Assembly (NCBI GenBank): GCA_003134785.1 | Contig: PLCN01000007.1 | Span: 16,443 to 80,442, forward strand | DNA length: 64,000 nucleotides | Direction of reading: 5' to 3' | Origin: Spartobacteria bacterium | Lineage (GTDB): Bacteria; Verrucomicrobiota; Verrucomicrobiia; Chthoniobacterales; UBA10450 | Shown here: in pieces, positions 33,451-56,250 of the stretch | Position numbering within the stretch: position 1 is the stretch's first letter | Layout: each line of letters starts with the position of its first letter | Position numbers and translations under genes: made by a program | The notes under the pieces: generated by a model | The model's database searches: none | What the model was told of the DNA's origin: nothing | The model's input: the letters and a program-made list of their open reading frames with translations, nothing else

Positions 33451-34755
33451 GTGAGCATCGGATCCGAAACTCTGGGTAGCGCACGCGTCTCGCGTGTTGG
33501 TTTCGGCGTCTCGCCGAAACGAACTTCCTTGCGCCGGCGTATTCGCGAAAGAAAAGTTCGCGATGGCGAGACGCCGTCGCCAGCACGCGAGACGCGCGCG
33601 CTACCCGGAAAACTCTGCGCATACGCGTTCGCTCTTGTTTTGGCTGGGTCGCTATCGGTCGCGCGTTCTTCATTCGCCCAGGCCGACCCCGCCACCGAGC
33701 CGGCGGTTCTGGCGGTGGCCAAAGTGCTGCCCGCAGTCGTCAACATCAATACGGAACGCGTCGTTCGCCGCCGGGTTCGCGATCCATTTGAAGATTTCGC
33801 GGCGCAATATTTTGGAAATTATCGGAGTCAGCCCCGCGAAATCCGGCAGACGCTTCAAAGCCTCGGCTCGGGATTCATCGTCGATCCGGCGGGTTACATC
33901 GTCACGAACGAGCACGTCGTCCAGCGCGCCGCCGATTTGAAGATCGAGGTCACGATGAATGACGGAAAAATCTACAACGCCCATTACATCACGGGCGATC
34001 CGAAGAAGGACCTCGCTTTCATTAAAATCGACGCGAAGGCCGATTTCCCGTTCATCAATCTGGAAAACATTTCGCCGAACCTCCTGGGCCAAACGGTGCT
34101 CGTGGTCGGCAACGCCGCGGGCTACGGCAGCTCGATCAGCCGCGGCATCTTGAGCGGGATGAAGCGCGACATCACGGTCGAAGACATCGATTACAAAGAT
34201 TTGCTGCAGACGGATGCCGCGATCAATCCGGGCAATAGCGGCGGCCCCGTCATCGATTTGTCCGGACGCCTGGTCGGAGTCAGTTCGGCCAAGATGGCTT
34301 TCACGCCGCAAGGCGTCCCAACGCAGGGACTCGGCTTCGCTATTCCGGCGGAGACGGTTCGCGCCAGCGTGGGCGAGTTCAAAAAGACGGCGCAAAATCA
34401 GCCGCCACCGAAAAGCAAATCCACTGAAAGCGAAGCAGTCGCGTCGCACGCTCAGCGCCTTTTCGGAATGCAATTGCAAAACCTGACGCCCGATTTGACC
34501 AACGCGCTTGGCTACGCACAAGGCCGCGGCGTTCTCGTGAGTGCGGTCGAGCCCGACAGCCCCGCGGATCGCGCGGGAATCGAGCGGGGCCTGGTGATTT
34601 ATCGTGTCGGCCGATACAATGTGTCGTCGGTCAAGCAGCTGGAAGGTTTGCTTGCGCGGGTGGGTTCAGGCACCAGCGTCGATTTCACCGTCGGCGTCAT
34701 CCGCGCGAACGGGCGAGGCGAGCAAGTCGAGACCGTCCCACTGACCGCACGCTGA
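33451..34755 (+). CDS. HtrA/DegP-type trypsin-like serine protease with PDZ
   Basis: GSGFIVDPAGYIVTNEHVV; KDLAFIKID; QTDAAINPGNSGGPVIDLSGRLVGVSSA; PDZ at C-terminus; GTG start. Confidence 0.93.
   Translation: MSIGSETLGSARVSRVGFGVSPKRTSLRRRIRERKVRDGETPSPARETRALPGKLCAYAFALVLAGSLSVARSSFAQADPATEPAVLAVAKVLPAVVNINTERVVRRRVRDPFEDFAAQYFGNYRSQPREIRQTLQSLGSGFIVDPAGYIVTNEHVVQRAADLKIEVTMNDGKIYNAHYITGDPKKDLAFIKIDAKADFPFINLENISPNLLGQTVLVVGNAAGYGSSISRGILSGMKRDITVEDIDYKDLLQTDAAINPGNSGGPVIDLSGRLVGVSSAKMAFTPQGVPTQGLGFAIPAETVRASVGEFKKTAQNQPPPKSKSTESEAVASHAQRLFGMQLQNLTPDLTNALGYAQGRGVLVSAVEPDSPADRAGIERGLVIYRVGRYNVSSVKQLEGLLARVGSGTSVDFTVGVIRANGRGEQVETVPLTAR
33473..33606. repeat. Family F composite inverted repeat, read in frame within the protease N-terminus
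   Basis: GGTAGCGCACGCGTCTCGCGTGTTGGTTTCGGCGTCTCGCCGAAACGAACTT ... AAAGTTCGCGATGGCGAGACGCCGTCGCCAGCACGCGAGACGCGCGCGCTACCC. Confidence 0.88.
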
Positions 34756-53820: not shown

Positions 53821-53934
53821 TGCTGATGAATGTGCTACCTCCATTCGATCCCCAACTCCCCACGCGGCTCTCCCTCGGCGCGAAAAAATCATTGTCAAAA
53901 TGCAGTCGATCCTCCGACAATCGCCTTCCCCCCG

Positions 53935-55302
53935 ATGCTGCTCGCTGACCAATATTCCGACCTCCGCGATTCCGCTCGAGTCCACGAACGCGCTCTCTTT
54001 CCCGCGCGCCGCGCGCCAAGTGAATTGGAATTACAAGCGCGCTGGTTTGCCGGCGATTTCGGAAAACACTTTCGCTCTGTCTCCGGCGATGAAGTCGAGA
54101 TCGTCCAATTCGGCACCTGGAATCGCGAAGCCGGACCGGATTTTTCCGACGCGGTTGTGCGCCTCAATGCCGGCGAACCAACCCGCGGCACCATCGAGTT
54201 CGACCTGGCGGATCGCAGCTGGGAAACGCACGGTCACGCCACCAACTCGGCCTTCGATAACGCGGTCCTCCACATTTTCGTGCAACAAAGTGCGCGCGTT
54301 TTTTTCACCCGCACGAAATCAAACCGGAATGTGCCGCAGGTGCGCGTCGATCCGGATACCCTGACGGATTCGTTCTCCGCGAACGTGCCGCTCGCGCGTC
54401 CCGGCCGCTGTCAGGCGCCGCTGAAAGATCTGGAGGAAGAACGGCTCGGCTGCATTCTTACCGCCGCCTCGCAGTTTCGCCTCCAACGAAAAGCCGCGCG
54501 GATCAAGACCATTGCGGAAAGTCACGGGCGCGATGAAGCGCTCTTCCAGGAAATCGCCGCGGCGCTCGGCTACAAACAGAACAAGCTCGCCTTTACCCTT
54601 CTCGCCCAGCGCTTGCCGCTCGCGTTCCTGCGCAAACAAAGCGATGACGCGGAAGCGATCCTTTTCGGCGTCGCCGGATTTCTCGAAGCGCCAGACCTCG
54701 GCGTCTACACACCGGACACTCGCGAATACGTCAGAAGACTTTGGGACCGATGGTGGCCATATCGCAACGAAATGCAACGACTGGTGCTGCCACCGAAACT
54801 CTGGCGTCTGAGCAGCACCCGCCCTCTCAACCATCCCCAGCGCCGCCTCGCCGCCCTCGCCACGCTCGTTCGCGCGTGGCCTTCATTCACCCGCTCTCTC
54901 GCCGGCAGAAAGACGGAGGCTGCTGAAGAATTCTTTCTCCGGCTGCACCATCCTTTCTGGAATTTTCACTACACCCTCACCTCCGCTCCAGCGGCGACAG
55001 AGATGGCTCTGGTAGGCGAATCACGAATCAATGAAATCCTGGCGAATGTTCTCCTCCCGTTGTTTCTCACAGAAGGCAGCGACATTTGGGCCGCCTACGA
55101 AAAACTGCCGGCTCGTCTTTCCAATCGTCGACTCGAGACCGGGGCCACCCGGCTCTTTGGCAGCGACCCGCGCCGGCCGCGCTTCACGAGGACCGTCGCC
55201 TTTCAGCAGGGACTGCTTCAAATCTACGAGGATTTTTGTTTGCAGGATAACTCCGATTGCGCCCAATGCCCCTTCCCCGAGCAGATGCTGAATTGGAAAT
55301 GA
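53935..55302 (+). CDS. DUF2851 family protein
   Basis: SELELQARWFAGDFGKHFRSVSGDEVEIVQFGTWNREAGPDFSDAVVRLNAG...C-terminal DNSDCAQCPFPEQ. Confidence 0.9.
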   Translation: MLLADQYSDLRDSARVHERALFPARRAPSELELQARWFAGDFGKHFRSVSGDEVEIVQFGTWNREAGPDFSDAVVRLNAGEPTRGTIEFDLADRSWETHGHATNSAFDNAVLHIFVQQSARVFFTRTKSNRNVPQVRVDPDTLTDSFSANVPLARPGRCQAPLKDLEEERLGCILTAASQFRLQRKAARIKTIAESHGRDEALFQEIAAALGYKQNKLAFTLLAQRLPLAFLRKQSDDAEAILFGVAGFLEAPDLGVYTPDTREYVRRLWDRWWPYRNEMQRLVLPPKLWRLSSTRPLNHPQRRLAALATLVRAWPSFTRSLAGRKTEAAEEFFLRLHHPFWNFHYTLTSAPAATEMALVGESRINEILANVLLPLFLTEGSDIWAAYEKLPARLSNRRLETGATRLFGSDPRRPRFTRTVAFQQGLLQIYEDFCLQDNSDCAQCPFPEQMLNWK

Positions 55303-55997
55303 ATCTTCTTCCTGTAGCGGCGGTCTATGACCGCCGAAGCGTCGCCAGCCGTCGATCGGCGGTCATAGACCGCCGCTACAGTTTTTGCTCCGCGCAACAA
55401 TCCTTCGCCGCCTTCACTCTCATAGAGCTCCTCGTCGTCATCACGATCATTGCCGTCCTGATCGGCTTCTTGTTTCCCGCCTTCCAAGGCATCCAAAACC
55501 AAGCCAAGAAAACGCAAGCCAAGAACGACTTGCTGCAAATCGTAACTGCGTTGAATGCCTACTACACCGAGTACGGAAAGTATCCTCTAACTCCTTCCGC
55601 TCCCGCAGACACAACTTACGGTTCGACGACAACGAATGACAGGCTGTTTAACATTCTTCGCTCCGTCAATTCTCCCACGGACAACCCGCGCGGGATTGTG
55701 TTTCTTTCACCGCCGGACGCGAAAGATCGTACCAATCCCAAGGCCGGCATTAGCACCGCCTCAGCATCAGTTGGCCAATATTTCGACCCTTGGGGAAAAC
55801 CATACATGATTCGCATCGATACGGACTACGACAATCAAGTTCCCAATCCGTATTCGGCAAATGCGGGAAATGCGCCTCTCCGAAGCGGCGTCATCGCGTG
55901 GTCATTCGGGAAGGACACTCAGTCGGAAAGCTCGCCTGGCCCAGCTCCTGACAAGAACTCCGCAATAAACAAGGACGACGTAATCTCCTGGCAGTAA
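55299..55997 (+). CDS. Type II secretion/type IV pseudopilin (GspG-like)
   Basis: FAAFTLIELLVVITIIAVLIGFLFPAFQGIQNQAKKTQAKNDLLQIVTALNAYYTEYGKYP; ATG overlaps the DUF2851 stop (ATGA). Confidence 0.88.
   Translation: MNLLPVAAVYDRRSVASRRSAVIDRRYSFCSAQQSFAAFTLIELLVVITIIAVLIGFLFPAFQGIQNQAKKTQAKNDLLQIVTALNAYYTEYGKYPLTPSAPADTTYGSTTTNDRLFNILRSVNSPTDNPRGIVFLSPPDAKDRTNPKAGISTASASVGQYFDPWGKPYMIRIDTDYDNQVPNPYSANAGNAPLRSGVIAWSFGKDTQSESSPGPAPDKNSAINKDDVISWQ
55312..55381. repeat. Family C inverted repeat, in frame inside the prepilin leader
   Basis: CTGTAGCGGCGGTCTATGACCGCCGA - 18 nt - TCGGCGGTCATAGACCGCCGCTACAG, perfect 26-bp arms. Confidence 0.95.
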
Positions 55998-56076: not shown

Positions 56077-56147
56077 GCGGGTGTAGTTCAATGGTAGAAC
56101 GCCAGCTTCCCAAGCTGGACACGAGGGTTCGATTCCCTTCACCCGCT
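56077..56147 (+). tRNA. tRNA-Gly(CCC)
   Basis: GCGGGTGTAGTTCAATGGTAGAACGCCAGCTTCCCAAGCTGGACACGAGGGTTCGATTCCCTTCACCCGCT; anticodon loop TTCCCAA. Confidence 0.95.
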
Positions 56148-56250
56148 GTTTTACCTATGAAGGAACCTCTTCTTTCGGCCCGCAGTCATAACAAAAACGC
56201 CCGAAAGTCATAACACGTCCGCCGAAGGTCGGGACAATTCGCCACAGTCC

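Follow-up and report, generated by a model that had tools for sequence, protein, structure and literature searches.

In-frame REPINs in the predicted cleavable leader of a verrucomicrobial pseudopilin

Introduction

The REPIN/RAYT systems (Within-Genome Evolution of REPINs, 2011, PMC3116915) combine two inverted REPs, separated by a variable spacer and present in high copy, with a REP-flanked RAYT gene, and typical REPINs are extragenic. GTAG REPs lying in frame inside genes were described in 2013 (Di Nocera et al., PMC3733652), mostly from the verrucomicrobium Opitutus terrae; according to the main text of that paper, GTAG palindromic dimers lie in frame, add 20-30 residues and also occur in replication/repair genes. 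Likewise, Rickettsia palindromic elements (RPEs; Ogata et al. 2000 and 2002, as presented in PMC10969869) are palindromic and mobile-like and are found, in another phylum, in frame in protein genes. Prepilin leaders, for their part, are hydrophilic peptides of varying length with Gly or Ala as the last residue, and the long-leader prepilins (T4bP and the major pilins of Streptococcus sanguinis) illustrate that pilins can function with leaders far above the usual few residues (PMC10191384). The present study concerns a soil verrucomicrobial genome and its relatives, in which different palindromes have landed in the same dispensable leader spot several separate times.

Results and discussion

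A REPIN between the start codon and the predicted cleavage site

The window, i.e., the whole 64,000-nt stretch of DNA analysed, harbors on its forward strand a gene for a DUF2851 protein (53926-55302; PF11013, E 7.9e-58; stop TGA at 55300-55302), the 5' end of which is uncertain within an ORF of 53830-55302, and a prepilin gene whose ATG (55299-55301) shares ATGA with that stop. The frame from 55299 reads MNLLPVAAVYDRRSVASRRSAVIDRRYSFCSAQQSFAA|FTLIELLVV, comprising a predicted leader of 38 codons (55299-55412), with cleavage placed at Ala38/Phe by the N_methyl match (from residue 37) and the alignment of orthologous leaders, and a mature pseudopilin (FTLIELLVV..., 55413-55997 including the stop) delimited by the N_methyl and TIGR01710 matches and dN/dS. 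N_methyl (PF07963) matched residues 37-58 with 24.5 bits (cut-off, 21.2), and the A|FTLIELLVV junction with its hydrophobic stretch and Glu at +5 is that of a class III signal peptide; the last residue of the leader is Ala. The TIGR01710 (GspG) score of 47.6 bits stayed below the cut-off of 88.85, and the protein is thus referred to only as GspG-like. A single-sequence AlphaFold2 model had a mean pLDDT of 45.6 and was confident in the N-terminal helix only. Relatives in the databases came from unclassified Verrucomicrobia, Spartobacteria and Chthoniobacterales assemblies. In addition, a stretch that is tRNA-like by its sequence only was detected 3' of the pilin gene at 56082-56150 (GCGGGTGTAGTTCAATGGTAG...CTTCCCAAG...).

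Downstream of the ATG and separated from it by 10 nt (AATCTTCTTC), a 70-bp inverted repeat (55312-55381, +) was identified, with 26-nt arms that are 100% complementary and an 18-nt spacer that is not palindromic. The left REP arm (55312-55337, +) carries CT and the GTAG tag (55314-55317) and the right arm (55356-55381, -) is inverted, with CTAC at 55376-55379, CTGTAG thus opening each arm. As RAYT-linked REPs are marked by GTAG, the pair of inverted REPs bearing this tag at the 5' end makes the element a REPIN of the GTAG REP superfamily. The 22-nt REP core occurs four times in the window versus 0 expected, and 206 times in the 4.39-Mb genome (at most 2 mismatches) versus 0 for the reversed control pattern; together with the perfect arms, these counts rule out a chance palindrome. 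Differing from the extragenic location that characterizes REPINs, this copy lies within an open, conserved coding frame, where it reads VAAVYDRRSVASRRSAVIDRRY(S) and encodes 22-23 of the 38 leader residues. The sequence-only reading had claimed the overlap of the ATG with the DUF2851 stop, an in-frame reading of the repeat and a leader made up mostly of it, and all three hold, with the frame from 55299 being stop-free through the REPIN into FTLIELLVV; it was also right that the inverted repeat is perfect, but not that the 70 bp directly follow the ATG, given the 10 nt between them.

As a REPIN insertion would normally be disruptive, the pilin gene might be regarded as a decaying pseudogene and the insertion as a step in its loss. 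This is extremely unlikely, since 232 codons are open, N_methyl scores above its cut-off, the gene is kept in all eight members of the genus, and the mature region has a dN/dS of about 0.11-0.24 (against G002 and G003), the last of which rules out a pseudogene. The mature pseudopilin is under purifying selection.

Empty and filled leader sites among relatives

The proposal that an in-frame insertion could be tolerated in the leader gains support from the orthologs, since relatives with the same DUF2851-ATGA-pilin layout have REPIN-free leaders. In the nearest relative, where the two genes overlap in the same way, the leader has 14 residues and no REPIN, and REPIN-free leaders of 5 to 14 residues run from the same ATG in G001 (MKFRQQRDSA), G002 (MKPLSVSSRRHLIA), G005 (MKNERA) and G006 (MKPRG). 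The ATGA overlap is present in seven of the eight genus members, the exception being G007, with its ATG 3 nt after TAA. When the DNA of the nearest empty site was aligned pairwise, the net length difference was 72 nt, in which neither a target duplication nor the insertion breakpoint could be placed because leader sequences diverge fast.

REPINs occupy the orthologous leader in four of the eight genus members (the focal genome G000, G003, G004 and G007), all in frame and stop-free. The REPIN in G000 belongs to family C, that in G003 to a different family (GGTAGGGCGAGACTC) read in one phase, and those in G004 and G007 to the GGTAGGGCGAGACTC family read in another phase than in G003; this family has 129 copies in G004, 90 in G007 and 81 in G003, and 3 to 43 in the other genus members. 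G004 and G007 are sisters in the pilin tree (100/99), whereas G004 groups with G006 in the Obg plus DnaE tree, and the simplest reading of these sequences would be one insertion that spread by gene transfer, the pilin moving together with its REPIN. With G004 and G007 counted as a single insertion plus transfer, the leader REPINs of the genus represent two unrelated families and at least three separate acquisitions.

Moreover, three species of a second genus, g5 (G099, G074 and G103), share a fourth leader REPIN, of the GTAGGGCGTCTGTGTCAGACGCC repeat family, in frame and open, and G103 has an extra 72-nt in-frame insertion inside it. Changes in the shared g5 leader are spread about evenly over the three codon positions (5/5/5; 7/12/11) and the frame is still open; the frame is kept and the residues are not, as expected if translation is needed and the residues hardly matter.

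Start of translation

A pilin start downstream of 55381, the alternative that the sequence-only reading had named, was searched for at the sequence level and is ruled out for G000, as no ATG, GTG or TTG exists among the 11 codons from the REPIN to the cleavage site (AGT TTT TGC TCC GCG CAA CAA TCC TTC GCC GCC). Likewise, no in-frame ATG, GTG or TTG was found from the REPIN end to the cleavage site in G003, G004, G099, G074 and G103. Upstream in-frame starts within DUF2851, if used, would take in the REPIN too. Translation from 55299 is therefore the simplest reading, because a downstream start is missing, the overlap is kept, REPIN-free leaders run from the same ATG and purifying selection acts on the product.

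The competing explanation holds that the REPIN is 5' untranslated intergenic DNA, with the pilin starting downstream and the upstream open frame being accidental. It accords with the usual position of REPINs between genes and with the warning, given in the main text of PMC3733652, that many N-terminal REPs in ORFs reflect mis-called starts. It also accords with G007, where initiation at an ATG directly 3' of the REPIN would yield a leader of normal size (10 residues) and the REPIN of this genome could be untranslated, and with two other loci of G000 (L231 and L232) that have a start codon just 3' of a REP. However, the six genomes named above have no in-frame start after the REPIN, and the upstream frame is open in all four events. 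The leader copies have 1, 1, 2 and 2 of 3 phases open (20% of phases are open in family C REPINs overall), and simple arithmetic, with a 1/3 chance of keeping the frame each time, puts the probability of all four being in frame and open by chance at ~6e-4. An untranslated REPIN is thus considered quite unlikely, and translation from 55299 is retained as the preferred reading.

Predicted hairpin

A strong mRNA hairpin just after the start codon, as anticipated from the sequence, was found in silico in G000 (z = -6.8 versus shuffles), beginning 13 nt after the A of the ATG and leaving the start-codon region essentially unfolded; z was -7.4 in G007 and 0.0 in G002, where the hairpin is absent. 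A distance of 13 nt is about the edge of the region that an initiating ribosome covers. The REPIN could in principle have been recruited as a regulator, its hairpin tuning pilin versus DUF2851 output in a translationally coupled pair or stabilising the upstream mRNA, which would suit both the very stable structures predicted in G000 and G007 but not G002 and their position at the ribosome footprint beside an unfolded start codon. Nevertheless, any REPIN forms such a hairpin, half of the genus has no REPIN in this leader, and in g5 the arms now match perfectly over no more than 9-11 bp, meaning that the hairpin is not strictly maintained. Because of this weakening in g5, a kept regulatory role is unlikely. 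The leader REPIN is most likely junk that the gene tolerates and not a function under selection.

Other prepilin leaders

About 100 other prepilin leaders read in the eight genomes are mostly 5 to 13 residues long, and an in-frame palindromic repeat was identified in only two of them (L126 in G000 and L195 in G006). The repeat-bearing fraction was 4/8 for the orthologous leaders versus 2/~98 for the others (Fisher p = 2e-4, for a test in which the eight leaders are phylogenetically non-independent and the scan would miss degenerate repeats). The overlap with DUF2851 is likely the reason for the special status of this leader: as the genes overlap, the leader would be the only slack, dispensable DNA between them, and REPINs would settle there repeatedly, whereas other prepilin genes have an intergenic stretch that can take up REPINs.

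In L126 (near 1371-1506; G000:C24:84530), the prepilin ATG lies in the right (second) arm of a REPIN from another family (GGGTAGCGCATGCGTC), which also has a pair in the window at 33474-33606. An 18-nt inverted repeat of CGAATGACGAATGACGAA makes up the L195 leader (MTNSRMTNDEGMTKRECSSFVIRHSSFRAASA; G006:C42:157701). Leaders of the orthologous pilin were also read in L088 (G018), L104 (G019), L093 (G013) and L057 (G016), among which MRKKTPNIQRRTLNVESRQA and GFGIRDSRFGGG resemble short repeats (CAACGTTCAACG and GATTCGGGATTCG types), and leaders may thus take up further kinds of repeat.

Family C REPINs in other proteins

The context of family C was read at 72 distinct sites sampled from stretches of the G000 genome, a part of all copies. 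Inverted pairs made up 44 of these sites, in line with a high-copy, mostly paired REPIN family, and most sites were extragenic or 5' of a start codon. Five were read in frame within genes, i.e., in the pilin leader, HemC, Obg, DnaE and a thioredoxin-domain protein, with coding calls based on a simple codon-usage score and with HemC and the thioredoxin-domain protein recognised by eye. Stop-free readings of family C copies fell nearly all in one phase, and all in-frame inserts read VAAVYDRR, or GGHRPPLQ from the opposite arm.

Obg is an essential GTPase and DnaE the replicative polymerase. Comparison with solved structures revealed 54 residues in the Obg loop (L246) versus 7 in Bacillus Obg, and 45 in the DnaE loop (L217) versus 4 in the best-matching solved DnaE (3e0d). 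The G007 Obg loop and the G005 DnaE loop (nested) contain related REPIN peptides (VAAVSDRR...GGQRPPLQ), and in the other sister species the Obg and DnaE loops are shorter or unrelated at the REPIN position. In HemC (L230), REP codons follow the only plausible ATG and precede the conserved KIILGSRGSELA, the N-terminus apparently being REP-encoded as MSVDDSPNS-VGGHRPPLQ-KIILGSRG. Both the recurrence at the pilin leader and the in-frame insertion of family C into internal parts of other proteins go beyond the sequence-only reading.

The best reading is that proteins tolerate GTAG-type, RAYT-moved REPINs as in-frame peptide inserts at places where their own sequence is dispensable, the presumably cleaved leader being one of these. 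More broadly, and tentatively, with the balance slightly against it, prepilin leaders and certain Obg and DnaE loops of this verrucomicrobial family could be standing landing pads in which REPINs persist as in-frame, RPE-like inserts, the leader-borne ones being translated and then removed.

RAYT and proposed mechanism

A RAYT gene (Y1_Tnp, with the HIH motif) was detected at 211.5 kb of contig C3 in G000 with family C REPs on both sides, as is the case for a cognate RAYT (HUH tyrosine transposase). Directly 5' of GTAG, the arms of the 44 REPINs have C in 79 of 88 cases and T in 87 of 88, which agrees with the CT cleavage reported for TnpAREP (PMC8266576). The RAYT gene (L133 1366-1848, -; contig C3 near 211.4-211.9 kb) seems to start within its own flanking REP, where TCTATGACCGCCGAAGGAG gives M-T-A-E-G and no other ATG, GTG or TTG lies upstream of the conserved core.

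It is proposed that a GTAG-type REPIN, presumably mobilised by the RAYT, entered the gene 3' of the start codon and 5' of the cleavage site and, being stop-free in one phase only, is read through in that phase, which would lengthen the leader by ~24 residues, mostly hydrophilic and rich in arginine. Prepilin peptidase would then cut the leader off, and the mature pilin would be unchanged because the insert is confined to the removed leader; the insertion would presumably be neutral. Judged on sequence evidence, this explanation as a whole, i.e., a REPIN inserted in a prepilin leader, translated, and removed by cleavage with the mature pilin intact, is probable.

Significance and comparison with known systems

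The leader site is a clean experiment of nature that shows which positions in coding DNA can hold a mobile palindrome, as the removal of a peptide is of no cost to the mature protein and close relatives provide empty, singly filled and nested versions of one site. If the broader landing-pad reading is true, cleavable leaders form a class of sites at which mobile elements can be translated and then be absent from the mature protein. Furthermore, the Obg and DnaE inserts make the tolerance of essential proteins to mobile DNA directly testable.

Compared with the systems introduced above, the element at 55312-55381 shares its architecture with REPIN/RAYT systems and departs from them by its location in a coding frame (PMC3116915). 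Long leaders of T4bP and S. sanguinis pilins are a lineage trait (PMC10191384), whereas here the length would stem from the insertion of a mobile element. RPEs are ~150 bp long with a conserved encoded peptide, as presented in PMC10969869, and the pilin-leader element is a RAYT-linked REPIN of a mostly intergenic family; as family C, like RPEs, occurs in frame in functional protein genes (pilin leader, Obg, DnaE, HemC and thioredoxin-domain protein), it may by analogy work like an RPE without being filed as one. The N-terminal cases of intragenic GTAG REPs are suspected of being mis-called starts in the main text of PMC3733652, which contains no pilin or signal-peptide case; the pilin leader differs in having no downstream start and in being one site hit repeatedly, and the absence of a downstream start codon answers that doubt for this one locus. 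In the main texts of the open-access papers searched, no REP or REPIN was found to be described within prepilin leaders or signal peptides. In summary, in-frame intragenic REPs are already known, and what is new is the presumably cleaved-off site, its repeated occupation by unrelated REPIN families and the evidence for frame-keeping.
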